From positions 1 through 36,555 of IMG/VR virus record IMGVR_UViG_3300020183_006548: a stretch of 36,555 nucleotides of DNA; one strand, written 5' to 3'. A program made the position numbers and the translations under genes. This DNA comes from a virus. Shown one piece after another: positions 233 to 36,555 of the stretch. The notes under the pieces were generated by a model. It had not been told where the DNA came from, made no database searches, and saw only the letters and a list, made by a program, of their open reading frames with translations. Within the stretch, counting starts at the first letter, position 1. The number at the start of each line of letters is the position of its first letter.

Positions 233-1132
233 TTATGGTAAAGTTATTGTTCTAATATTACCATTTATGTTTAATGATGCTTGATTATCGCATCTGCCAT
301 CTCCGAAATTAAGAATACCAATCCAAGGACTAGGGTTAGAAAGATTTCTTCTTACAGTTTTAATTTGCCCTTTTACTATCCATCTACATGTGTTCTTTTT
401 TATGAGTGGTTCGATTATTTCTGAAGACCAACTTGTCGCTCTAAGTCCTCTTACAGATTGACCACTTGAATTACCAGTTTTCTTAAATATATCATCACGA
501 AGTATAGGTGTATGAGAACCTTCAATTTGTTCAATTGTTTTTGTTGAGTTCCATTCTACCACATCACCATTAGGATAACCTAATCTTCCACCAACAACTG
601 TTACCAACCATTTATGATTGTATTGTGGAGGGAATATCATAATTTGTACCGGATCAACTATATTTTTAATTTTGTACGTTCCTCCAACTGTGACGGAATC
701 AACACTATAATTAAGGAAATTTGTGACTGATTCTGCACCAGGAATCATCAATCTACATCCGTAAACAGTTTTTATTTGTCCCCTTCTCACCCTTCCGTCA
801 GGACCCATACAACCTGATTGTGGGAATGTAATTGTTACAATCATTGGAAATGCTTGAGGTGCCAATGGGCGTTCTATTCTAACTGTAAAACATCTCTGTG
901 CTGTGTCTAGACCATATTCTCTTCCAAAAATGCCTGAACCCATAACTCCTACCTCATCACTCATCCCCATCACATCATCAAAGACATGACTGAAAGATTG
1001 CTCTGAAAAGGCATCACCCTCAGAAGCAACTTGAGACAGTTCAATCTCTTTTTGTTCAACTATGTTTGTGTTTTCTTTTTTACAAGAAAAAAGTATTAGA
1101 GTAAAACCTAATAATAATAATAGTTTTTTCAT
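233..1132 (-). CDS. Bacteroidota-type lipoprotein
   Basis: About 299 residues. A start 13 codons further upstream is possible, but the internal ATG at 1132 gives a textbook lipoprotein signal (MKKLLLLLGFTLILFSC) with the lipobox Cys at residue 17, and it avoids overlap with the upstream gene ending at 1143. The mature part contains GCMGPDGRVRRGQIK followed by a predicted beta-rich segment (NYSVDSVTVGGTYKIKN). This pattern resembles large families of Bacteroidota cell-surface lipoproteins of unknown role. It is probably exported and lipid anchored in the host envelope. Its presence in a phage suggests a lysogeny- or infection-time surface modification gene, but that is inference. Confidence 0.8.
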   Translation of the reverse strand: MKKLLLLLGFTLILFSCKKENTNIVEQKEIELSQVASEGDAFSEQSFSHVFDDVMGMSDEVGVMGSGIFGREYGLDTAQRCFTVRIERPLAPQAFPMIVTITFPQSGCMGPDGRVRRGQIKTVYGCRLMIPGAESVTNFLNYSVDSVTVGGTYKIKNIVDPVQIMIFPPQYNHKWLVTVVGGRLGYPNGDVVEWNSTKTIEQIEGSHTPILRDDIFKKTGNSSGQSVRGLRATSWSSEIIEPLIKKNTCRWIVKGQIKTVRRNLSNPSPWIGILNFGDGRCDNQASLNINGNIRTITLP

Positions 1133-1142
1133 AGTTTTGATT

Positions 1143-1466
1143 TTAATTTTTTTTGTTTCTGTCGTTTCCAAAAATCAATTTTCCGTTAAAATATAAGGTA
1201 ATAATACTGAAACCAGCATCGTCAACTCTTTTTTTTAGGTTTTTAAATTGAAATTCGTCCTTTTTGTATTCCAAATCCCATTCTTGTGTCTTAAGATTCG
1301 GTTTTATTTTTTGAATGAATTTATCATTAGAAAGTGATTCGTGAATTGCTCTCGAACACATTGAACAAGTAACTCCACCTGTAGTGAATTTAATTTTATC
1401 TTGTCCAAAAGTAATAAATGGTAGTAAAAAAAATAAAAAAATTACTGCGGTTATAAATTTTTTCAC
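1143..1466 (-). CDS. Exported heavy-metal-associated (HMA-like) domain protein
   Basis: 107 residues. The N-terminus is a cleavable signal peptide (MKKFITAVIFLFFLLPFITF then GQ). It is followed by an HMA-like, ferredoxin-like fold with the metal-binding motif GVTCSMCSRAI (Cys34 and Cys37) and an end that matches the last strand of HMA domains (VDDAGFSIITLYFNGK). Such proteins bind Cu(I) or Zn(II), and small secreted HMA proteins are common in Bacteroidota. It lies 10 nt upstream of the lipoprotein gene on the same strand, so the two are probably co-transcribed. The role in a phage is unknown; it may be a host-derived accessory gene. Confidence 0.8.
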   Translation of the reverse strand: MKKFITAVIFLFFLLPFITFGQDKIKFTTGGVTCSMCSRAIHESLSNDKFIQKIKPNLKTQEWDLEYKKDEFQFKNLKKRVDDAGFSIITLYFNGKLIFGNDRNKKN

Positions 1467-3360: not shown

Positions 3361-5052
3361 ATGATTGTAATGGGAATGTCCGCCGGACACGATAGAGGGG
3401 CTGTATTAATTAAAGATGGAAAAATCTTGATTGGTATTACTCAATCTAGATTATCAAGAATTAAAAATGATGGTGGAAAATTTAGAAATGGTGGAGAGGG
3501 TTTGCCCTTACTGTGTATTGAGTATTGTCTCAACCACTATGGTTTAAATTATAACGACGTAGACCTATACGTCTATTCCTCTACTGAATTTTTTTCTAAT
3601 ATGGAGGATCAATTTGAACAACATTTGGGTCAATCTATCGAAAAACTCAAATTTATACCTCATCATTTAGCTCATGCTTTTTCATCTTTTTATTCTTCAG
3701 GTTTTAAAAAAAGTGCTGTAGTTGTTGCTGATGCAATGGGTAACACTATTGAGGAAACTAATTCATTTGGTCGAAGAAAAGAAAACTGGTATCCTAATGA
3801 AAACTTGCCAATTTTGCCCGAAGGTCATACATGGGGTGAGTCTGTCAGCATTTATAATTTTACAATGGACGGATATAAAGAAGTTTTCAAAAAGTGGCAA
3901 CCATTTCCACATCCTTTTAACACTGAAGGACAAGGATCACTTGGCACAATGTATGGAATGGGTACATATCAATTAGTTTATGACAAAGAAAAGAATTGGT
4001 GGTCGGCGGGAAAACTTATGGGATTAGCATCATACGCTGATAAAAAATTTGTAGATGAGCATCAACTTTCAGTTCAGGAACTTGACAACGATATTTCAAT
4101 AAAATTAATAGAATTCTATTCAGAGGTCAGATATTATAGTGATTTTTATCAAAGAGCTAACGTGGCTGGTCTGTACCAAAGGGAACAAGAACAATCTTCT
4201 TTGATTCTCGGAAGAATGGCAAAAAAACTCACAGGATCGGATAATATTTGTCTAGCTGGAGGATCGTTTCTAAATTGCAACTCCAATGAATTGATTATAA
4301 AATCAGAACTTTATAAGGATTGTTATTTTGTACCACCAGCAGATGACTCAGGTATTCCATTAGGTTGTGCTTGGTATGGTTATCAAAGCTTAGTAAAAAT
4401 GGACAAGACAACATTTTTGAGTCCATATTTGGGGAAGACATACTCTAAGGGAGAAATAATAGCCGAGATATTAAAATTTGAAGATTGTAAATATGAATAT
4501 TTTGAGGATTTTGATAAATTGACTGAAGTCGTATCCAATTATCTGTCAGAAAACAAAGTTGTTGGGTGGATGCAAGGGGGTTCTGAAATCGGTCCAAGAG
4601 CTTTGGGTAATAGGTCCATCTTAGCATCACCCCAAAAACCGTGGATGGAAAAAAATATCAATTTTCTAAAAGGTAGAGAGTGGTATAGACCTTTTGCTCC
4701 TGCGGTTCTTTATGATCATCAGTCAGACATATTTGAATCTGATGTCTTCTCACCATACATGCTTGTAACGACCACTGTAAAAGAAGAATGGAGAGACAAA
4801 ATACCTGCGGTAACGCACATTGATTACTCGTCAAGACACCAATCAGTTACACCCAAAACTAATCAAAGGTTTTATAAATTGTTACAAAAATTCTTTGATA
4901 AAACAGGTGTACCCGTTCTTTTAAATACAAGTTTTAATGGTCCTGATGAACCAATTATTGAAACTCCATCCGATGCATTGAAAACTTTCCTCGATAGAAA
5001 ATTAGATATCTTGGTGATTGGAGACTATTTGATTACAAGGAAAATTTTTTGA
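3361..5052 (+). CDS. Carbamoyltransferase, NodU/CmcH family
   Basis: 563 residues, the family's usual length. The N-terminal Kae1-like (ASKHA) domain contains HHLAHA (residues 101-106) and the ADAMGN segment near 123. A middle LAGGSFLNCN motif follows, and the C-terminal YrdC-like half carries GSEIGPRALGNRSI, REWYRPFAPAV and NTSFNGPDEPI. The family transfers a carbamoyl group from carbamoyl phosphate, through a carbamoyl-adenylate, to a sugar hydroxyl (Nod factors, antibiotics). The substrate here is unknown; the GT17-like glycosyltransferase at 10.5 kb suggests a glycan, and some phages use such enzymes on modified DNA bases. A weak TATATTTC box lies 4 nt before the ATG. No truncation is seen. 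Confidence 0.95.
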   Translation: MIVMGMSAGHDRGAVLIKDGKILIGITQSRLSRIKNDGGKFRNGGEGLPLLCIEYCLNHYGLNYNDVDLYVYSSTEFFSNMEDQFEQHLGQSIEKLKFIPHHLAHAFSSFYSSGFKKSAVVVADAMGNTIEETNSFGRRKENWYPNENLPILPEGHTWGESVSIYNFTMDGYKEVFKKWQPFPHPFNTEGQGSLGTMYGMGTYQLVYDKEKNWWSAGKLMGLASYADKKFVDEHQLSVQELDNDISIKLIEFYSEVRYYSDFYQRANVAGLYQREQEQSSLILGRMAKKLTGSDNICLAGGSFLNCNSNELIIKSELYKDCYFVPPADDSGIPLGCAWYGYQSLVKMDKTTFLSPYLGKTYSKGEIIAEILKFEDCKYEYFEDFDKLTEVVSNYLSENKVVGWMQGGSEIGPRALGNRSILASPQKPWMEKNINFLKGREWYRPFAPAVLYDHQSDIFESDVFSPYMLVTTTVKEEWRDKIPAVTHIDYSSRHQSVTPKTNQRFYKLLQKFFDKTGVPVLLNTSFNGPDEPIIETPSDALKTFLDRKLDILVIGDYLITRKIF

Positions 5053-6811: not shown

Positions 6812-7525
6812 TTAATCCGGTTGTTCTTCTGTTGATCCTCCACCACCACCTTCTAATCCCTCTTCACCCGTTGCTGTCGAGTTTCCACCTAAATATTCAT
6901 TTTTATATTGATTCCAAGCCTTAGAAGTTCTTGGACCGAATTTACCATATCCTGATCCACGATTCAACTTCCCTTCTTTGAATCCTGTAGCCCATCCAGC
7001 TTTATTTGTATCGGCCCAATCTTGGAATTTTTTTACTCCTTCGATGTCTTTGAGTTCTGTTGGTATAGAAGGTTGTGTGCCTTTAGACTCTCCTGATTTT
7101 TCACCTGAACCTACACTTGAAAATTTCCACTCCCAGTATCTGCCGTTAGTTCCAGGAATACTGCCGGCCTCGGCATTCATACCAAGATTTTTGGCCCAGT
7201 CTTTCAAGTCCTGAGACTCTTTTGGATCATTCGCATTGATCATATCATAAAGAGCTTGACCAATCCCTACATTATATTTTTCTTTATATGCCTTTGCTAA
7301 TTTATCAAAGTTGGCTTTTGTTTTATAGTTTTGTAAGATTTTAATAACATTTGTTTCATTCGAGTTAAATTTTTTGACCTCATCGTTAATGTCTCTGATG
7401 TGGCCACTTATATCAATTTGCTCAACAATTTTAATATTCTCATTAAGGGTTTTCTTCGAATCATAATTCATTCTGAGTTTGATCAATTTCAAAGATTCTT
7501 CGGGTGTAAGTTTTTTATGATACAT
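6812..7525 (-). CDS. Virion-like protein with leader and C-terminal peptidoglycan-binding-like domain
   Basis: 237 residues. The leader (MYHKKLTPEESLKLIKLRM) is followed by TLNENIKIVEQ, a candidate LNE-N processing site near residue 27. The central part is helical. The region at about 160-215 (VKKFQDWADTNKAGW then GSGYGKFGPRTSKAWNQYK) has the look of a peptidoglycan-binding or cell-wall recognition module: a repeat of Trp/Gly and a GxFGPxT pattern as in PG_binding_1. The C-terminus is Gly/Glu rich. It has its own TATTTATA box 15 nt upstream. A tail or baseplate role is plausible but inferred. Confidence 0.8.
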   Translation of the reverse strand: MYHKKLTPEESLKLIKLRMNYDSKKTLNENIKIVEQIDISGHIRDINDEVKKFNSNETNVIKILQNYKTKANFDKLAKAYKEKYNVGIGQALYDMINANDPKESQDLKDWAKNLGMNAEAGSIPGTNGRYWEWKFSSVGSGEKSGESKGTQPSIPTELKDIEGVKKFQDWADTNKAGWATGFKEGKLNRGSGYGKFGPRTSKAWNQYKNEYLGGNSTATGEEGLEGGGGGSTEEQPD

Positions 7526-7890: not shown

Positions 7891-8433
7891 ATGAAAATTA
7901 AGATATTGTTTTTACTAGCCCTCGTATCATTATTTTTCGTCAGTTGTGAGAAATATGTTGCGGGAACAACTGTAACCCTGAGTGGAAAATATATGATCAA
8001 CAGGATAACAATGAAATCTGTTGATCAAAACACCACCACTGATTCAACCTACAGAATTGGTGATGTTTATATCGATACGAGTAGGAATGCTCCGGTGCCT
8101 TTCGATCGAATCCGAGTTGGGTATACATTTTTACACTTCGGGTATGATCTCATAAATTTAAGATATTTGGGTGTGAGTCAAACAGGTTCAGACCTGTGGG
8201 ATTTTAGATATCAAACATCTTATTGGATTTGGGGTAACAATCAATGGCAATCAGGTTATTTACAATTCTCTTACACCGATGTTTTAAAAACAAATGCTAG
8301 ACACACCCTCACTTTTCAAATAACAGAGGACAAATTGGAAAGTTTGGAACTCACAAGTAGTGGAATTTGGCCATCATATAAATTTGGTGAGAAAAAAATA
8401 ATGATTATCAATCTAACAAGAGTTGGTCCTTAA
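7891..8433 (+). CDS. Bacteroidota-type lipoprotein
   Basis: 180 residues from the internal ATG at 7891, which gives the signal MKIKILFLLALVSLFFVSC with the lipobox Cys at residue 19. A longer start at 7864 adds nine residues that spoil the signal. The mature part is rich in Tyr/Trp and predicted beta strands (IWGNNQWQSGYLQFSY), suggesting a lipocalin-like or small beta-barrel fold. No known family motif is seen. It is probably lipid anchored in the host envelope. Its stop codon overlaps by 4 nt with the stop of the convergent gene at 8430. Confidence 0.75.
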   Translation: MKIKILFLLALVSLFFVSCEKYVAGTTVTLSGKYMINRITMKSVDQNTTTDSTYRIGDVYIDTSRNAPVPFDRIRVGYTFLHFGYDLINLRYLGVSQTGSDLWDFRYQTSYWIWGNNQWQSGYLQFSYTDVLKTNARHTLTFQITEDKLESLELTSSGIWPSYKFGEKKIMIINLTRVGP

Positions 8434-8732
8434 AAAATTATCGCTTCAGGTAGTCTGTTGGGATTTACTAAAAAATACTCATTCAAGAAACTCACAAGCT
8501 CCTCCTCTTCCAATTCCACGTAATCCGATACATCGTTTCCTAAATCTTCTTCCTCATCAAAAAAGAAATCTATTGACTCAGTTTCTAACTCAAAACCATA
8601 GTCGGCGACCTCACTATACTCTATCACTACATTCCTAATATGCTCGTCAGTATCATCTATTGTCCTAAATGCAACCTCCAAAATGTTCGCTGAAGGCAAT
8701 ACCGAATAAGATACAATCTCCTTTATTTCCAT
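8430..8732 (-). CDS. Acidic protein of unknown function
   Basis: 100 residues from ATG 8732. A longer open frame reaches 9071 but would overlap the strongly coding oxygenase-like gene on the other strand, so the short start is preferred. The N-terminus has a beta-strand pattern (MEIKEIVSYSVLPSANILEV), and the C-terminal half is strongly acidic (FFFDEEEDLGNDVSDYVELE). No motif is recognised. It ends convergently with the lipoprotein, sharing the four bases TTAA as both stop codons. Confidence 0.65.
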   Translation of the reverse strand: MEIKEIVSYSVLPSANILEVAFRTIDDTDEHIRNVVIEYSEVADYGFELETESIDFFFDEEEDLGNDVSDYVELEEEELVSFLNEYFLVNPNRLPEAIIF

Positions 8733-8816
8733 AAACTTTTTATAAGAAATATTACAATATAATGTAAAAGTGTATTTCAAAAAAAAATTTTTACTATTAT
8801 ATTTTAAAAAAAAAGT

Positions 8817-9392
8817 ATGAAGATCAATTCGATTACAGTAGATGACTTCTACACAAATCCTTGGCAAGTAAGGGACTTTGCCCTCAAACAAGAATTTGCT
8901 GTTAGAGGAAACTATCCAGGACAGAGGACAATTTCTTTCATGAATGATAGCCTTAGAAATACAATACAGTCGATTGTTGGACCTCACGCTGGAAAAGTAA
9001 CCTTTTGGGGTGAAGATCAATATACAGGATCTTATCAATACACGATTGCAACCGACCGATCTTGGATTCATGCAGATTCTACGACCGATTGGGCAGGTGT
9101 TTGTTATTTAACACCAGATGCCCCTCTGTCTTCAGGAACAGGATTATTTAGACACAAAGAAACTGGTAGAAGATCATATGATTACAAAACTGAAAAACCT
9201 GAGGAAGCACAAGAAGCTTGGGATGAGTGTCAAGACATGACAAAATGGGAAATGGTAGATCGTGTTGGAAATATATTTAACCGACTAATCCTATACAGAG
9301 CAGATAACTTCCACGTCTCTTTAGACTATTTTGGGAAAAACATTTATGATGGAAGATTGTTTCAAGTTTTCTTTTTCAATACGGAATATTAA
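8817..9392 (+). CDS. 2OG-Fe(II) oxygenase-like protein (DUF6445-like)
   Basis: 191 residues. The layout matches a double-stranded beta-helix oxygenase: an HxD pair at His85-Asp87 (SWIHADSTT), a GTGLFRHK strand, a distal His166 in YRADNFHVS and Arg180 in GRLFQVFFFN, where the 2-oxoglutarate carboxylate would bind. This compact type is common in large phages and bacterial biosynthetic clusters; the substrate is unknown. It faces the neighbouring PKHD-type oxygenase at 9.8-10.4 kb. Its stop overlaps the convergent gene's stop by 4 nt. Assignment to DUF6445 is from memory. Confidence 0.7.
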   Translation: MKINSITVDDFYTNPWQVRDFALKQEFAVRGNYPGQRTISFMNDSLRNTIQSIVGPHAGKVTFWGEDQYTGSYQYTIATDRSWIHADSTTDWAGVCYLTPDAPLSSGTGLFRHKETGRRSYDYKTEKPEEAQEAWDECQDMTKWEMVDRVGNIFNRLILYRADNFHVSLDYFGKNIYDGRLFQVFFFNTEY

Positions 9393-14184: not shown

Positions 14185-14348
14185 CAAACGAAGAAATTAT
14201 AGATGAGTTGTTGCACCAAGCTTATGAGTTGAAAATTCGTGATCAGGTATTAGATCTTTCAAGACTTTTGAGAGAAAAAAATAATAAAATGACGATGTTA
14301 GAATCACTCGAATTAGCAATGGAACACATAAAATCAAGTTATGAATAA
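14181..14348 (+). CDS. Small helical protein (55 aa)
   Basis: ATG at 14181 overlaps the previous stop (ATGA), and its own TAA at 14346-14348 lies 8 nt inside the thymidylate synthase gene, so it is embedded in a coupled cluster. The sequence starts MTNEEIIDELLHQAYELKIR and ends EHIKSSYE, all helical. Short genes of this kind (MTNEEII...LL.EA) recur, as I recall, in large Bacteroidota phages. Function unknown. Confidence 0.7.
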   Translation: MTNEEIIDELLHQAYELKIRDQVLDLSRLLREKNNKMTMLESLELAMEHIKSSYE

Positions 14349-15447
14349 TTTAGATTCAAGTTATCAAGCCTTATTGAAAGATATTCTCAGTACAGGTGTG
14401 GAAAAAAAAGATAGGACTGGAACTGGTACCATATCAGTTTTTGGTAGACAAATTCGTCACAAGATGAGTGAAGGGTTTCCATTACTCACAACAAAAAAGA
14501 TGCATTGGAAATCGATTGTAACAGAACTCCTATGGTTTTTAAGAGGTGATACAAACATTAAATACTTAGTTGATAATAATTGCCATATTTGGGATGGAGA
14601 CGCTTATAAAAACTGGGTATTAAAAAATTCAGAACCTGACCCATATTGTTTGACACAAGAAGAATTCATCAACAAAATTAAAACCGATGATGAGTTTGCT
14701 AAGAAATGGGGTGAATTGGGACCAATCTACGGTAAGCAATGGAGGAGTTGGAAAGGATTTCATGAAGGACAACATGACATATTAAAAGTAATTGAGGGTA
14801 TTGAAAAACATAAAGATTACTTAGAAGGTACAGACCAAATTTTTAATCTAATCTATAATCTTAAAACAAATCCAGACTCAAGACGATTAATGGTATCAGC
14901 TTGGAATGTAGGTGAATTAGACCAAATGGTTCTTCCACCTTGTCATTATGGATTTCAAGTTTATACAAGAGAATTGAGTGGCGAGGAGAGATGGAAACTA
15001 TTGGAACAAAAAATGGGTACAGAAAAATTCAAATCTACAGTCGATGATCTAATACCATTCGGTGGTGGGTTGAGTGAAGAATTGCAATTATACAATATAC
15101 CAAAACGAACAATCTCTTTAATGTGGAATCAACGTTCAGTAGATACATTTTTAGGATTACCATTTAACATTGCTTCCTATGGATTACTACTTGAAATAAT
15201 TGCTAAGGAAGTGAACATGATACCTGAAGAATTGATTGGAAACCTCGGTGATACCCATTTATATTCGAATCATATCGAACAAGCAAAGGAACAAATTGTT
15301 AGAACACCATTTGAGTTACCTACAATCAAGATAGAAGATGAAGTAGTATGGACAGAATATAATTGTTTACCATCCTATAAAATCGATGACTTTACTCTAA
15401 AAAACTACAAATCACACCTAACAATTAAAGCACCATTGTCAAATTAA
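14341..15447 (+). CDS. thyA: Thymidylate synthase (ThyA type)
   Basis: 368 residues. Catalytic Cys201 lies in LPPCHYGFQVY. Phosphate-binding Arg25 and Arg181-182 (SRRLMVSAWN), GPIYGKQWR and GDTHLYSNH are all present. The residue that separates dUMP from dCMP enzymes is Asn276 (GLPFNIASYG), so the enzyme should methylate dUMP to dTMP rather than make 5-hydroxymethyl-dCMP. Two insertions relative to the 264-residue E. coli enzyme are visible: about residues 86-122 and 211-250. No dihydrofolate reductase is seen nearby. It overlaps the 55-aa gene by 8 nt. Confidence 0.97.
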   Translation: MNNLDSSYQALLKDILSTGVEKKDRTGTGTISVFGRQIRHKMSEGFPLLTTKKMHWKSIVTELLWFLRGDTNIKYLVDNNCHIWDGDAYKNWVLKNSEPDPYCLTQEEFINKIKTDDEFAKKWGELGPIYGKQWRSWKGFHEGQHDILKVIEGIEKHKDYLEGTDQIFNLIYNLKTNPDSRRLMVSAWNVGELDQMVLPPCHYGFQVYTRELSGEERWKLLEQKMGTEKFKSTVDDLIPFGGGLSEELQLYNIPKRTISLMWNQRSVDTFLGLPFNIASYGLLLEIIAKEVNMIPEELIGNLGDTHLYSNHIEQAKEQIVRTPFELPTIKIEDEVVWTEYNCLPSYKIDDFTLKNYKSHLTIKAPLSN

Positions 15448-15452
15448 AAAAT

Positions 15453-16937
15453 ATGAAAAAAACAGTTATAACACTGACCTTATTAGCAATCACTTTTTGC
15501 CTATTTTTCTACATGTGTTCAAATAGAAATTTAGGAGAAACTAAATTTAATTTTTCTATTGTAGAAAATAAAGATTTTAAAAATCTTCCTGCATTACAAT
15601 CTTTTGCATTTGCCACGCATAAAGATTATTGGATTATTTTAGGAGGAAGAACAAATGGATTTCACGGTTTTCCAAATCAACCAACTCCCGCTTTTCCTTA
15701 TTCAAAAGCTAATAAGTACATATATGTCTATGATACAAAAACACATATTCTTGATAGTATGAGTGTTTATGAATTGCCACAAACAATTCAAAATCAGTAT
15801 GCAACCACAAATATGCAACAAACCCAATATAGAGATTTTCTTTATTTGTGTGGTGGATATGGTAAAGCTGGTTCATCTTCTTCATCAAAATTCATAACAG
15901 ATAGTACTATCTCGAGAATAAATTTACCTGCGTTAATAGAAAGAGTTTCTCTTAAACGAAAAAATATAATGCTTGAAACAATATTCGCTTTTGATTCAAA
16001 TCCGAACCTTCATGTTTGTGCTACTGGCGGGGAATTAATAAGACTTGAAAATGGTAGTTTCTATCTTTGTGTTGGACATAGATATTATGGAGAATATGTA
16101 GATACTTTGCCGGCTCCAATACAAAAATATAGAAACAATGTTACGGTTTTTGATTTAATAGAAAAATCAAATTCTATTTCTATAAATCCATCTACCATAA
16201 AAATAATAACAGATGGTCTTCCAGACAGCACTACTCAATTTCGTAGACGAGATTTAGTTGTTGCTCCAGAAATATTGGGAGATAAAAAATCTGTTGGTAT
16301 CAGTATTTACGGAGGAGTTTTCACTAAAAAAAATGGAACACCTTATTTGCATCCAATTTATTTATCAGAAAAATCATATAAAGTTTCTCCATTTGAACAA
16401 CCTTCAAATCACTATTCAGCAGCACACATTGAAATGTATTCAAAAGAAAGCAACAAAATGTTTACAACCATTGTGGGCGGAATAGTAGATGGTTTTTCAG
16501 ATACATCTTATGCAAGTTTTACAAAAAAGATTTTAACATTAGAAAAGAATTATGAATTAGATAGTGTAAAATCATTTTATAATAAAACAGAGCTTGAAAC
16601 GTTTATGGGTTCAGAATCTGTGTTTGCGTTATCGAATAATTTATCTAAATACAAAAACAATTACAGTATCATAGATTTTGATAAAATACCAGTTATGAAC
16701 AAAGATTCAGATTCTTTATTGATAGGATATATTTACGGAGGAATTTTATCAACAGCTGCAACATCAAATCAATATCCAAAACCTGGAGAAACTTTTAAAC
16801 CAACATTTTCTTCAAATAAAGTTTATTCTGTTTACATAAACAAATATTCAGAAGGAACGGAGTCAAACAATAATATTATTTTTGTTTTTTTAATTTTTAT
16901 TATTTTTATTGTTATTGCGATATCAAACAAAAAATAA
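15453..16937 (+). CDS. Kelch-like beta-propeller membrane-anchored protein
   Basis: 494 residues. The N-terminus (MKKTVITLTLLAITFCLFFY) is a signal sequence, and the C-terminus is a single hydrophobic helix followed by a basic tail (IIFVFLIFIIFIVIAISNKK). In between, repeated strands with GG-Y/R patterns (WIILGGRTNG, LYLCGGYGKAG, ISIYGGVF, TTIVGGIVDG, IGYIYGGILS) suggest a kelch-type propeller facing outside the cytosol. It starts 5 nt after thymidylate synthase. It looks like a host-derived surface gene rather than a phage replication gene; codons are especially AT rich. Function unknown, possibly surface exclusion or adhesion. Confidence 0.75.
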   Translation: MKKTVITLTLLAITFCLFFYMCSNRNLGETKFNFSIVENKDFKNLPALQSFAFATHKDYWIILGGRTNGFHGFPNQPTPAFPYSKANKYIYVYDTKTHILDSMSVYELPQTIQNQYATTNMQQTQYRDFLYLCGGYGKAGSSSSSKFITDSTISRINLPALIERVSLKRKNIMLETIFAFDSNPNLHVCATGGELIRLENGSFYLCVGHRYYGEYVDTLPAPIQKYRNNVTVFDLIEKSNSISINPSTIKIITDGLPDSTTQFRRRDLVVAPEILGDKKSVGISIYGGVFTKKNGTPYLHPIYLSEKSYKVSPFEQPSNHYSAAHIEMYSKESNKMFTTIVGGIVDGFSDTSYASFTKKILTLEKNYELDSVKSFYNKTELETFMGSESVFALSNNLSKYKNNYSIIDFDKIPVMNKDSDSLLIGYIYGGILSTAATSNQYPKPGETFKPTFSSNKVYSVYINKYSEGTESNNNIIFVFLIFIIFIVIAISNKK

Positions 16938-19821: not shown

Positions 19822-19932
19822 ATGAAAAATAGAGTTTGTGAAATTTTAAATCACCACAAATTTGAATATTACGCCACCGTGCATAATTCGGGAAAGGTAA
19901 TTATCATCTTTGACAAAGAGTTTATGTCATGA
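19822..19932 (+). CDS. Small protein coupled to umuC (36 aa)
   Basis: ATG at 19822 and TGA at 19930-19932, which overlaps the umuC ATG at 19929 (ATGA). The peptide starts MKNRVCEILNHHKFEYYATV and ends in an IIIFDKEFMS strand, a helix-beta-hairpin pattern. It is the first gene after a clear host-type promoter, so it is very likely translated. It may only serve to couple translation of umuC or may be a small partner protein. Confidence 0.65.
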   Translation: MKNRVCEILNHHKFEYYATVHNSGKVIIIFDKEFMS

Positions 19933-21134
19933 TATCCAAAAAAATTGGTATTGTAGATTGTAATAATTTTTATGTTAGTTGTGAGAGAGTATTCAATCCT
20001 GTTTCAACTGGTCGTCCTACAGTTGTATTATCAAATAACGATGGTTGTGTAATTGCTAGATCTCAAGAAGCAAAAGATTTAGGAATAAAAATGGGAGAAC
20101 CTTTCTTTCAAAAAAAAGAATTTATGGACGAACATAGATTTTGTGTTTATTCCTCCAACTATAATCTTTATGGTGACATGTCCGATCGTGTTATGAGTGT
20201 GATTAGAGAACACGTATCTTCTCTTGAAATATATTCAATTGATGAATCTTTTATTGATGTTTCTCATGTTGAAGAAAAGGATATGATGGACTTTCTCCAC
20301 ATCATCAGAGAAGATGTTAAAAAAAGAATTGGTATCCCTGTTTCGATTGGGGTTGGTCCAAACAAAACTCTTGCAAAACTCACCTCACATATTGCAAAAC
20401 AAAACTCAAATTATAAAGGAGTGTGTTCTTTTTGGGATCTTGAAGAAGTAAGAAATATGTATTATGGTATTGACGTTGGTGAAGTTTGGGGTATTGGTAG
20501 AAAATGGAAAAAGAAATTAAATTCTATTGGTGTGGATAGCGTTGGTCAGTTTGTCAACTCAACTGATGGGTGGATTAGAAAAAACATGTCAATTCTTGGT
20601 CTTCGTACCAAATATGAACTTCTTGGACATTATTGTAATCCTATTGTAACAACACCTAAAACAAAAAAGAACGTTGCTTCTGCCAGATCTTTTGGACAGG
20701 ACGTAGATGACTTTTCTCAAATTGCCGAAGCAATGTATGTCTATATTCAAAACGGACTAAGAAAAATCAAAGATGACTCTTTGGAAGCCAAAAAAGCCAC
20801 CATATTTGTGTCGGGTAATAAACATAAAGGACAAACACATTCTTATTATAAAAGTGTCTCTTTTCAAAAAGCGACTTGTGATACTGAGGAGATATGGGCT
20901 CAAGTCTATCCAGAACTACGTAAACTGTTCAAAAAAGACAAATCTTATAAAAAATGTGGTATTGTATTCTCAGAATTAACCCCCTCTAATCAACATCAGA
21001 TTACGTTATTCCAATCATCTCTTCAAATGGTATCTCCACCATCTAACACAGAAAAAAAATGGGAGATGAAACAAGAATTTATAACAAAAAAATATACAAC
21101 GAAGTGGGAGGATATTCCCGAGTGTTTTGTTTAA
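19929..21134 (+). CDS. umuC: Y-family DNA polymerase, UmuC type
   Basis: 401 residues. IGIVDCNNFYVSCERVF carries the first catalytic Asp10 and the steric-gate Tyr15. SSNYNLYGDMS and YSIDESFID (Asp105-Glu106) give the other catalytic acids. VSIGVGPNKTLAKL and WGIGRKWKKKL (helix-hairpin-helix-like) follow, then the little-finger domain begins with KNVASARSFG. The length is slightly less than the 422 residues of E. coli UmuC; the C-terminal tail (EKKWEMKQEFITKKYTTKW) is shorter. It performs translesion synthesis, here probably with the UmuD-like protein at 12.3 kb. Its stop overlaps the convergent gene's stop by 4 nt (TTAA). Confidence 0.97.
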   Translation: MISKKIGIVDCNNFYVSCERVFNPVSTGRPTVVLSNNDGCVIARSQEAKDLGIKMGEPFFQKKEFMDEHRFCVYSSNYNLYGDMSDRVMSVIREHVSSLEIYSIDESFIDVSHVEEKDMMDFLHIIREDVKKRIGIPVSIGVGPNKTLAKLTSHIAKQNSNYKGVCSFWDLEEVRNMYYGIDVGEVWGIGRKWKKKLNSIGVDSVGQFVNSTDGWIRKNMSILGLRTKYELLGHYCNPIVTTPKTKKNVASARSFGQDVDDFSQIAEAMYVYIQNGLRKIKDDSLEAKKATIFVSGNKHKGQTHSYYKSVSFQKATCDTEEIWAQVYPELRKLFKKDKSYKKCGIVFSELTPSNQHQITLFQSSLQMVSPPSNTEKKWEMKQEFITKKYTTKWEDIPECFV

Positions 21135-27001: not shown

Positions 27002-27010
27002 TATAAATAT
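27002..27010 (-). promoter_or_regulatory. Candidate late promoter box (ATATTTATA)
   Basis: The minus strand reads ATATTTATA, 56 nt upstream of the ATG at 26945. It overlaps a plus-strand ATATTTATT at 27007-27015, so this is another divergent region. Confidence 0.35.
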
Positions 27011-27020
27011 TTATTGAGGA

Positions 27021-27029
27021 CTATTTATT
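27021..27029 (+). promoter_or_regulatory. Candidate late promoter box (CTATTTATT)
   Basis: CTATTTATT lies 6 nt before the PPK2 ATG at 27036, with a second copy (ATATTTATT) 14 nt upstream at 27007-27015. Confidence 0.45.
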
Positions 27030-27035
27030 TGCGTC

Positions 27036-28139
27036 ATGGGAATATTAATTGAGGAACTAGATAAAATCAAAAAGGTAATGGGTATCATTAATGAAGAAAA
27101 AGATATCCCCTCTATGAACATAAACTTGGATCGTATGATCCTAACACTGAAGTTTTTAAAACTTTTCACATCACGTATCGAAAAGATGTTAATGGACATC
27201 TCTCAATTTGCAAAAAATCGAGTTGTTGATTTTGGATTACTTGAAAGAGGTCTACGCAAACGTCTTCTAAAAAAGGGGGATCGAGTTAAAAACGTGGAGG
27301 ATTACTTAGGTAAAGTTTTGAACTCGTTGAAATACAGAGAAAGAGTGGGATATGGTACTGAGCCCGAGTCAGAAGATTATGATTTCGAAATTGAGGAACC
27401 TTCAATTATTCCAAAAAAGATTTATAAAAAAGAATTATACGAATTACAAGTTGAGCTTCTGAAAATGCAAGAATGGTTATCTGAAACAAAAAAAACTGTG
27501 ATTATAGTTTTTGAGGGAAGAGACTCTGCAGGAAAAGGTAGCACAATAAAAAAATTTATTGAAAATCTGAACCCGAGATATTACAACGTGGTTGCATTGG
27601 GGATTCCATCACCTGAGGACAGAAAAAATTGGTGGAATAGGTATAAAAGCCAGATCAAGCCAGGTATGATTAATCTTTTTGACAGAAGTTGGTATAATAG
27701 AGGCTTAATTGAGCCCGTCATGGGATATGGGAGTCCTGATGAATATGAGGATTTCATGGAAAACGTTGCGGACTTTGAAAATGACTTGGTAAAGTCGGGA
27801 GACTATCTATTCAAACTATGGTTCTCAATAGAAAAAGAAACTCAGAAAAGAAGATTTGATATAAGACAACAATCCCCTTTGAAATATTGGAAATATTCTC
27901 CAAATGACGAAAAAATGCAGGATCTTTGGGATAGATTTACAGAATTCAAAGAAAAGTTATTCGATAAAACTTCTACTATGAACCATCCATGGGTCATAAT
28001 TGATGCTGAGGACAAAAGGGTTTCTGGTTTGAATGCTATAAGATACATTCTTCAAAATATCCCATACAAAGGAAAAAATGAGGATGTTGTAAATCAATCA
28101 TACCCCGAAGTATTGTCTGTCCTTAGACCAAACAACTAA
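27036..28139 (+). CDS. ppk2: Polyphosphate kinase 2 (PPK2) with virion-type leader
   Basis: 367 residues. Residues about 125-345 are a complete PPK2 domain: Walker A EGRDSAGKGSTIK (160-172), Walker B INLFDRSWYNRG (212-223), EPVMGYGS, KLWFSIEKETQKRRF and PWVIIDAEDKR. PPK2 phosphorylates nucleoside mono- or diphosphates using polyphosphate. The first 120 residues are extra: a leader MGILIEELDKIKKVMGIINE with IE-E and INE-E sites, a helical stretch and an acidic linker (residues 108-121). That N-terminus resembles the other leader-bearing proteins here. The gene has TATTTATT boxes upstream and overlaps the convergent gene by 4 nt. Confidence 0.95.
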   Translation: MGILIEELDKIKKVMGIINEEKDIPSMNINLDRMILTLKFLKLFTSRIEKMLMDISQFAKNRVVDFGLLERGLRKRLLKKGDRVKNVEDYLGKVLNSLKYRERVGYGTEPESEDYDFEIEEPSIIPKKIYKKELYELQVELLKMQEWLSETKKTVIIVFEGRDSAGKGSTIKKFIENLNPRYYNVVALGIPSPEDRKNWWNRYKSQIKPGMINLFDRSWYNRGLIEPVMGYGSPDEYEDFMENVADFENDLVKSGDYLFKLWFSIEKETQKRRFDIRQQSPLKYWKYSPNDEKMQDLWDRFTEFKEKLFDKTSTMNHPWVIIDAEDKRVSGLNAIRYILQNIPYKGKNEDVVNQSYPEVLSVLRPNN

Positions 28140-28362: not shown

Positions 28363-28371
28363 ATATTTATT
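28363..28371 (+). promoter_or_regulatory. Candidate late promoter box (ATATTTATT)
   Basis: ATATTTATT lies 15 nt before the endolysin ATG at 28387. Because lysis genes are classic late genes, this is one of the better supports for reading the box as a late promoter. Confidence 0.5.
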
Positions 28372-28386
28372 AAAAAAGAAATCACC

Positions 28387-29220
28387 ATGTTACTAAAAGT
28401 AGGATCCGAAGGGGGGGATGTAAAAAAGCTCCAATCAAAATTAGGACTAAGTTCAGATGGAATATTCGGAAAAACCACTGAGGCCGCTGTGAAATCATTC
28501 CAATCTAAGAATGGTTTATTATCCGACGGTATTGTTGGGATTCAAACTTGGGGAAAAATTATGGGTCAGGCTCATATGATTACTGAACCCGCCTCCGTTC
28601 CTTCACAACAAATAACAAATAGTGGATCTCTGAAACTTGAAAAATTGAAGGGTCATATACCTGACTTTGTCATTTTGCAAATACCTGAAACGGCAGTAAA
28701 ATTTGGTATTGACACTAACCTAAAATTATCTCATTTTCTGGCGCAATGTGGTCATGAGTCTGGAGGATTTAAATTAACTCAAGAGAATTTGAACTACTCT
28801 GCACAAGGTTTGAAAAAAATTTTCCCGAAGTATTTTCCGGGAAATTTATCTGAATCTTACGCAAGAGATCCACAAAAGATTGCTAATAAGGTTTATGGTG
28901 GTCGTATGGGCAACGGCAACGAGTCTACTGGTGAGGGGTATAAATTCAGAGGTAGAGGGTATATTCAACTGACAGGGAAAGATAACTACACTGCGTTCGG
29001 TTTGGCAATCAACGAAGATATCTTATCTAATCCTGATTTGGTTTCGACAAAGTATCCACTTTTATCTGCTGCATGGTTTTTCAGTAAGAATTGTCTTAAA
29101 AAATGTGTTGACGCTTCTGATGTAACTATATCGTCAGTCACAAAGTGTGTTAACGGTGGAACAATTGGTTTACCTGATAGATTAAAACATTTCAAAGAAT
29201 ATTATCATTTGTTGTCATAA
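28387..29220 (+). CDS. Endolysin: peptidoglycan-binding plus GH19 lysozyme/chitinase domain
   Basis: 277 residues. Residues 1-60 are a PG_binding_1 module (GGDVKKLQSKLGLSSDGIFG then TWGKIMG). Residues about 85-277 are a GH19-type muramidase/chitinase: AQCGHESGGF with catalytic Glu124, EGYKFRGRGYIQLTG with Glu183 just before it, and AAWFFSKNCL. There is no signal peptide, so release needs a holin; the holin-like gene at 35.2 kb carries the same type of promoter box. It cleaves glycan strands of peptidoglycan at the end of infection. Confidence 0.95.
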   Translation: MLLKVGSEGGDVKKLQSKLGLSSDGIFGKTTEAAVKSFQSKNGLLSDGIVGIQTWGKIMGQAHMITEPASVPSQQITNSGSLKLEKLKGHIPDFVILQIPETAVKFGIDTNLKLSHFLAQCGHESGGFKLTQENLNYSAQGLKKIFPKYFPGNLSESYARDPQKIANKVYGGRMGNGNESTGEGYKFRGRGYIQLTGKDNYTAFGLAINEDILSNPDLVSTKYPLLSAAWFFSKNCLKKCVDASDVTISSVTKCVNGGTIGLPDRLKHFKEYYHLLS

Positions 29221-35491: not shown

Positions 35492-36555
35492 CTAAAGACA
35501 ACCAGAATCACAACTTACCTCCAAATCTACTGCCAAATTAGTTCCTATATCTCCACTTACTACTGTATAGGTAGGTGAAGTATATGAAATTGAACCATTG
35601 TTTTGACAAGCTAAATCACTTATTTCCCCAACAACCGATATATTCGTATAAGTATTTCCACCACCCGTACATTGGTCAGCATCGCATGAAACCCCGATAA
35701 CATCACCTACGTTTACTGTATAACTTCCGTTTGAAGTAGAGTTTCGGGTTTCAACTGAACTTCCATTTATCAATAAATTATAAATTCCATTACCTCCATT
35801 AGTTTCAGTAAAAGTCCAGTTTAATGTTGCCGAAGCTATAGTGGGTGTTGGTGTCACAGTTGGAGTTTCGGTTGGTGTCACAGTTGGAGTTTCGGTTGGT
35901 GTCACAGTTGGAGTTTCGGTTGGTGTCACAGTTGGAGTTTCGGTTGGTGTCACAGTTGGAGTTTCGGTTGGTGTCTCAGTTGGTGTCATAGTTGGTGTTT
36001 CGGTTGGTGTCACAGTTGGTGTGGGTGTTTGAGTCGGACAAGCAGAACACAATTGAATAGATATGATTACACCAACTTTCGTAATTTGAATTGCATATAA
36101 ATTACCACCCCAACTTGTCTTCCACCATTGACTATTCCCGGACCATGGGTTTGTTAAAGAAGTGTTTGAATAGACAACATCATTTACAGTTGGTGTAGAA
36201 TCTGCTGCGGATACGTAACCATCGTTACTATAAGTTGTTAATCTACATGCAGTACAACTATCATTCTGTGGTGTTGAAAGTTGTATTGATTGATAAACAT
36301 TCGTTGGTGTCGGTGTTTGAGTAGGTGTTTGTGTATTAGTAGGTGTCGGTGTTTGAGTTTGGCTAGCTGTTATAGAAGGTGTGGGTGTTTGAGTAGGTGT
36401 TTGTGTATTGGTTGATGTTTGTGTATTGGTCGGTGTTTGGGTTTGGCTAGCTGTTATAGAAGGTGTCGGTGTTTGGGTTTGGCTAGCTGTTATAGAAGGT
36501 GTCGGTGTTTGGGTTTGGCTAGCTGTTATAGAAGGTGTCGGTGTTTGGGTTTGGC
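35492..36555 (-). CDS. Thr/Pro-repeat fibre or adhesin-like protein, partial at the right edge
   Basis: The leftward frame is open from the right edge to the TAG at 35492, at least 354 residues; the start is outside. From the edge inward: repeats of TASQTQTPTPSI, a Thr/Pro linker, a folded segment with paired Cys and many Trp (DSCTACRLTTYSNDGYVSAA, NPWSGNSQWWKTSWGGN), CSACPTQTP, a second run of TPTETPTV repeats, then a Cys-rich beta-type C-terminal domain (LNWTFTETNGGNGIYNLLIN ... SCDSGC). Such Thr/Pro stalks separate binding domains in phage fibres and bacterial adhesins. A shorter start at the TTG at 36052 is not credible, because the folded segment upstream continues in frame. Confidence 0.8.
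   Translation of the reverse strand, partial: QTQTPTPSITASQTQTPTPSITASQTQTPTPSITASQTQTPTNTQTSTNTQTPTQTPTPSITASQTQTPTPTNTQTPTQTPTPTNVYQSIQLSTPQNDSCTACRLTTYSNDGYVSAADSTPTVNDVVYSNTSLTNPWSGNSQWWKTSWGGNLYAIQITKVGVIISIQLCSACPTQTPTPTVTPTETPTMTPTETPTETPTVTPTETPTVTPTETPTVTPTETPTVTPTETPTVTPTPTIASATLNWTFTETNGGNGIYNLLINGSSVETRNSTSNGSYTVNVGDVIGVSCDADQCTGGGNTYTNISVVGEISDLACQNNGSISYTSPTYTVVSGDIGTNLAVDLEVSCDSGCL
35850..36025. repeat. 24-bp tandem repeat (TPTETPTV coding)
   Basis: The unit GGTGTCACAGTTGGAGTTTC plus GGTT occurs five times without a change at 35850-35969. It is followed by a 12-bp half unit, a 24-bp variant and a partial copy. Read leftward each unit codes for eight residues of Thr/Pro/Glu. 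Copy number is likely to vary between strains. Confidence 0.92.
36445..36555. repeat. 36-bp tandem repeat (TASQTQTPTPSI coding)
   Basis: Units beginning GGCTAGCTGTTATAGAAGGT start at 36445, 36481 and 36517 with exact 36-bp spacing and continue past the window edge. One more copy lies at 36361 after a diverged stretch. Each codes for a 12-residue Ser/Thr/Pro/Gln repeat. Confidence 0.92.

Follow-up and report, generated by a model that had tools for sequence, protein, structure and literature searches.

The analysed DNA, a fragment of 36,555 bases from the IMG/VR virus collection (referred to below as the window), contains a gene for a polyphosphate kinase 2 (PPK2) of 367 aa, which begins with an ATG and occupies positions 27036..28139 on the plus strand. 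The Pfam PPK2 profile (PF03976, E 4.8e-70) spans residues 127-348 and is matched from position 4 to 227 of 229, i.e. by a near-complete domain. Both Walker motifs are present, namely Walker A, GRDSAGKGST (27516..27545, +), and Walker B with the class residue, LFDRSWYN (27675..27698, +), which confirms the complete PPK2 domain reported in the initial annotation. The kinase domain, delimited from Pfam, structural and sequence relatives and the class residue, comprises residues 125-348 (27408..28079, +). The residue following Walker B is Asn in class I, Gly in class II and Glu in class III enzymes (PMC8776046), and Asn, within the signature WYN, was found at this position in 56/56 phage PPK2 sequences. 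By this signature the phage PPK2 is of class I type, for which ADP and GDP would be the predicted substrates and ATP and GTP the products. By fold, the nearest solved structures are the Francisella and Sinorhizobium enzymes of class I; by sequence, the class II enzyme of Pseudomonas joins these two. The bacterial class I proteins (Francisella 4YEG/5LLB, Sinorhizobium 3CZQ) have the same kinase domain and class I residue, with 40-46% identity in structural alignments; in contrast to the phage PPK2, the tested bacterial PPK2s lack the leader and the helical domain described below.

An AlphaFold2 model (mean pLDDT of 69, only moderate) divides the approx. 124 residues that precede the kinase into three parts rather than one: a leader helix (residues 2-14, with low-confidence residues at 12-26), a helical domain and a linker. 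The leader (residues 1-20, MGILIEELDKIKKVMGIINE; 27036..27095, +) ends in a predicted prohead-protease site, I-N-E (27087..27095, +), proposed from the conserved [ILV]xE motif and the T4 gp21 motif L/I-X-E, and the cut would fall after E20. It is followed by the helical domain (residues 29-102; 27120..27341, +) and by an acidic, low-confidence linker (residues 103-124; 27342..27407, +; pLDDT <50 over 104-120). The initial annotation had described 120 extra residues with a leader of the packaged-protein type; the leader is there, but it accounts for the first ~20 residues, and since the model resolves separate parts, the rest is to be read mostly as the helical domain, then the linker. Among PPK2s the helical domain is confined to those of phages: its HMM matched one megaphage PPK2 weakly (E 0.004), and on other proteins it gave weak matches only (best E 0.0096).

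A scan of viral sequences with the PPK2 yielded 56 loci (54 to 80% identity), and an N-terminal extension was present in 55/55 relatives with a readable start; L052 was left out of this comparison, as the contig end cuts the gene. The commonest leader is M..LxExIxRIKxVMGIIxEE, and shorter ones occur in some lineages (MRNLNKHLINEE, MSNLYKFIIEE); in several lineages (L023-L046) a shorter leader goes together with a PPK2 gene that has no upstream box of its own, which speaks against packaging. Other phage PPK2s thus share this N-terminus, a question raised at the outset together with its possible presence on ordinary bacterial PPK2s, which the initial annotation had named as refuting its proposal. 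When the latter were collected by a genome scan, their alignments started no earlier than residue 77 and mostly at 122-137, and neither leader nor helical domain was found in any of the 70 with a readable start, which rules out that the leader is the N-terminus of a bacterial PPK2. An artefact of a mis-called start was ruled out as well: the position of the Met is kept, and the leader has a pN/pS of ~0.4 in three groups of relatives and is therefore constrained as protein. The [ILV]xE motif lies at positions 7-36 in 33 of 34 distinct PPK2 N-termini, compared with 20.6 +/- 2.7 in shuffled sequences (maximum of 29 in 2000 runs), which argues that the leader is more than a chance feature. The strict form [IL]xE, represented by INE in the window, accounts for 29/34, the count of 33 requiring that V be allowed. 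Counting against the packaging reading, the motif is short, and some leaders carry V-x-E, and that of L011 P-D-E, for which cleavage by T4 gp21 is not known. The positional enrichment of [IL]xE across all proteins of a genome gave only a mild N-terminal rise and was not decisive. Two further PPK2 matches were set aside, one in the Acinetobacter record MD-2021a (annotated as polyP:AMP phosphotransferase beside recC and ubiE, and probably bacterial sequence) and one in MT835589, where the surrounding ORFs resemble GC-rich bacterial DNA. Flavobacterium phage immuto gave no PPK2 match, a search for virion data on it found none, and it was rejected as a proteomics test case.

Two TATTTATT boxes precede the gene, 28 nt (27008..27015, +) and 14 nt (27022..27029, +) before the ATG. 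Among the 7-mers upstream of genes, TATTTAT shows the strongest orientation bias (forward in 330 of 725 intergenic upstreams, reverse in 124) and peaks 10-29 nt before the ATG in the 20 related contigs, and both properties indicate that the PPK2 boxes are not there by chance. Over all 20 contigs two distances are preferred, 10-14 and 20-29 nt; the shorter spacing would leave nearly no 5′ untranslated RNA. The box is found before the genes for scaffold (4/4), protease (6/7), endolysin (19/20) and PPK2 (11/20), and is rare before those for the major capsid protein (MCP, 0/4), portal (2/7) and TerL (2/7), which are possibly operon-internal, and before thyA (0/13). In phage immuto it precedes 17/57 genes of the structural region vs 6/83 of the early region (p 0.0008). 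The boxes therefore look like a phage late-type element, and this bias towards head and lysis genes fits with packaging. As to the earlier proposal that such boxes stand here in place of a host-type promoter, the boxes are present above chance; that they act as promoters is what we infer.

The leader is not confined to PPK2. An HMM built from the PPK2 leaders alone was compared with the N-terminal, internal and C-terminal segments of ~1,900 ORFs on 20 phage contigs. Three unrelated proteins were matched (E 5.8e-6, 6.1e-5 and 7e-4), the best E on internal segments being 0.21. After iteration (E<=0.01) the HMM recovered 15 N-terminal clusters, PPK2 included, and five C-terminal clusters, with 0 matches in both internal controls; it may drift through iteration, but the flat controls argue against this here. 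One of the matches is an unrelated ORF of the window (6812..7525, -; E 5.7e-5 after iteration), whose leader, MYHKKLTPEESLKLIKLRMNYDSKKTLNEN, is of this kind. In 14/14 leader families [ILV]xE stands no more than ~25 residues behind the helix (shuffles 6.5 +/- 1.8, 0/2000 as high). These results support the view that the PPK2 leader belongs to a leader family borne by unrelated proteins of T4-superfamily phages, most of which received no function from Pfam and PHROGs. Among them is a homologue of the anti-CBASS protein Acb1 (PF23474, E 1.1e-7) on the contig of L046 (L105:12195-12761, -), which starts with MKTLNEQISKIKRIMGLNEN; the packaged cargo may accordingly include an anti-defence protein. 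A leader-like helix, NExIxRIKxLM, stands at the extreme C-terminus of M23 and VanY peptidases and of a SET-domain protein (L101:9260-9871, -; L107:18580-19791, +; L111:9567-10862, +; L117:17946-18377, -). Two other leader families, (I/V)xLTExE...LI and LTExERNRILxLH...EQ, were seen on unrelated proteins of related contigs, e.g. in G017 (81788-84281), adjoining the MCP gene, and hardly ever internally.

In phage T4, cargo is addressed to the head by an N-terminal capsid targeting sequence (CTS), 10 residues long and sufficient for the purpose, and foreign enzymes have been packaged and delivered in this way (PMC9026906). The T4 prohead protease gp21 cuts at L/I-X-E (PMC9026906; PMC9958956), and the C-terminus of Alt is processed as well (PMC9026906). 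The window contig, being a fragment, has no head genes, and its T4 kinship is known through relatives: a gp21-type protease (PF03420) was identified in 7/24 related records and a gp23-type match in 7/24, the two together in four (G012, G015, G017 and G018). The MCP N-termini of relatives read ...FLINEATS or HLINESSS, with LINE where T4 gp23 is cut (placed by eye). The carrier would be a T4-superfamily phage, probably of Bacteroidota hosts. As with T4 IPI-III and Alt, unrelated cargo of a phage of gp21/gp23 type begins with a shared short leader that ends in [I/L]xE, and the action on the host at injection known for the T4 proteins is proposed, by analogy, for PPK2. In contrast to the T4 CTS cargo, the leader here has another sequence (a RIKxLMG helix), the cargo would be a metabolic kinase, and matching tags are also found at the C-termini of other proteins. 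No homology to the T4 CTS (MKTYQEFIAE) was found in the T4-like group, and we infer that the leader is a packaging tag like the T4 CTS in function and not a member of the T4 CTS family itself. The ejection proteins of phiKZ and SPN3US offer a second parallel, in that many proteins packaged into their heads are cleaved after Glu by a relative of gp21, but their motif is A/S-x-E, their propeptides are mostly longer, and no PPK2 is reported among them in the literature examined.

The clade formed by the phage PPK2s also includes those of two megaphages, 642 and 735 kb in size (support 100/99). Both megaphages have gp23 above the Pfam cut-off and sub-threshold gp21-like matches, and the trace of the helical domain mentioned above occurs in one of their PPK2s, while the other does not score. 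Their PPK2 leaders (MINNFIKFINE and MISNYDNFMNE) differ from the leaders of the T4-like group and, alone among the PPK2 leaders, resemble the CTS of T4 ipII/ipIII. From one phage group to the other the enzyme thus stays the same while its leader changes, as is more readily expected of an address tag than of a domain of the enzyme. Around the PPK2 gene of LR756501 (leader MISNYDNFMNE; L250, 130000-179999), T4-CTS-like starts were found in 22/65 ORFs vs 1-6 internally; around that of LR756502 (leader MINNFIKFINE) the enrichment is weak (5/47 vs 1-5). A third of the ORFs near the LR756501 gene is a lot for packaged cargo, and this counts against packaging. Examples of such leaders near the LR756501 PPK2 are MIKTFDEFINE and MIKKYIQFINE.

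In the window the PPK2 gene is followed by an endolysin gene (28387..29220, +; PHROG 181, E 4.8e-65) with a TATTTATT box of its own (28364-28371). Five relatives (L040, L037, L041, L056 and L057) encode PPK2 proteins of 570-660 aa with an extra C-terminal region. In L040 of G015 (L081:6125-8074, -) a GH24 phage lysozyme was identified within it (PF00959, E 5e-12), the extra regions of the other four having been read by eye only. At the junction between PPK2 and the extra region, [LIV]NE is present in 5/5 of the long proteins.

Starting from what is observed here, i.e. the gene, its fold and class signature, the leader family, the conserved motif and the gene contexts, we consider it probable that PPK2 is packaged into the prohead as cargo of the T4 type, is trimmed by the head protease and, once injected, converts host polyphosphate into NTPs. 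This reading is drawn from sequence; the delivery suggested in the initial annotation is thereby partly borne out, with good support from comparison. The protein would be (i) made late, from TATTTAT-type promoters, (ii) directed to the prohead scaffold core by a short helix within its first ~20 residues, as by the T4 CTS, (iii) cut after I-N-E by a gp21-type head protease, with the helical domain and kinase (~40 kDa) staying in the head, (iv) injected with the DNA at infection, before any phage gene expression, and (v) active in phosphorylating NDPs to NTPs at the expense of host polyphosphate, the presumed direction of the reaction.

A wider proposal, which we advance tentatively and would rate slightly below an even chance, is that the T4-superfamily phages infecting Bacteroidota rely on a general address tag at protein termini, distinct from the T4 CTS, for loading a set of injected tools: a polyP-driven NTP generator, the anti-CBASS protein Acb1, peptidoglycan hydrolases and enzymes of unknown function. 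In some lineages PPK2 and lysozyme would then form a single polyprotein that is separated at [LIV]NE within the prohead.

PPK2 might instead be an ordinary auxiliary metabolic enzyme of the infected-cell cytoplasm, its leader an ornament or enzyme regulator that is never cut. Virus-encoded PPKs were already known (Li et al. 2025 Water Res 268:122678, cited in PMC13188868); ppk1/ppk2 on phage contigs are reported as auxiliary metabolic genes, with no packaging leader or virion role in the parts of these accounts available to us, and the neighbours of PPK2 are, in most lineages, accessory rather than head genes. This explanation nevertheless seems unlikely, as neither the occurrence of the leader on unrelated proteins nor the site motif nor the exchange of leaders between phage groups would be expected of an enzyme regulator. 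Considerably less probable is a role of prohead PPK2 in assembly, as a core protein or a source of ATP from polyP for the packaging motor, with delivery as a side effect. A class I PPK2 does make ATP from ADP, and in G020 the gene is located 20 bp behind that of the terminase (TerL) and before that of the portal, all on one strand except for two small ORFs of opposite orientation between PPK2 and portal, an arrangement that also favours the prohead-cargo reading; however, such a location occurs in one lineage only, the ADP of the terminase is released outside the head, and other carriers, e.g. Acb1, make sense after injection. Since the leader is also found at C-termini, among them those of M15/M23 peptidoglycan peptidases, and since PPK2 is fused to lysozyme, the tag could address another virion part or complex (tail or membrane-associated machinery) instead of the head core, but this is very improbable, given that no clear tail protein was matched, that Glu-directed gp21 cleavage takes place in proheads and that the C-termini of putative scaffolds (LIESKTYENPQFLRMKDLMSKIK, and SEQVSRWQKLAGIIK in phage immuto) resemble the tag, albeit weakly.

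If PPK2 is indeed injected prohead cargo, the phage would bring its own means of turning stored host polyphosphate into NTPs ahead of phage transcription. To our knowledge, the known injected T4 proteins act on host proteins or defences and not on energy supply. A review of PPK2 does not mention phages (PMC8776046), and no description of PPK or PPK2 as a virion component was found in the literature searched, most subscription papers lying outside the search; the packaging architecture of PPK2 thus appears to be new, the viral PPK genes themselves being known. Injection of PPK2 would also provide a sequence rule for predicting injected cargo, counter-defence proteins included, in uncultured phages, and viral ppk genes would be read differently in studies of the phosphorus cycle.

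Near PPK2, small ORFs conserved in three contigs carry portions of gp23, the capsid protein, in a permuted order, first the C-terminal, next the middle and last the N-terminal part: G019 8269-9266 (-) in L141, G021 515-1350 (+) in L144 and G022 15550-16412 (-) in L146. Elsewhere in the window, a carbamoyltransferase-like ORF (3361-5052), a thymidylate synthase (14341-15447) and a Y-family polymerase-like ORF (19929-21134) were named from the sequence by eye, the latter two without TATTTAT boxes, and an ORF running off the end of the window (35492-36553, -) contains threonine/proline-rich repeats, TPTPSITASQTQTPT.
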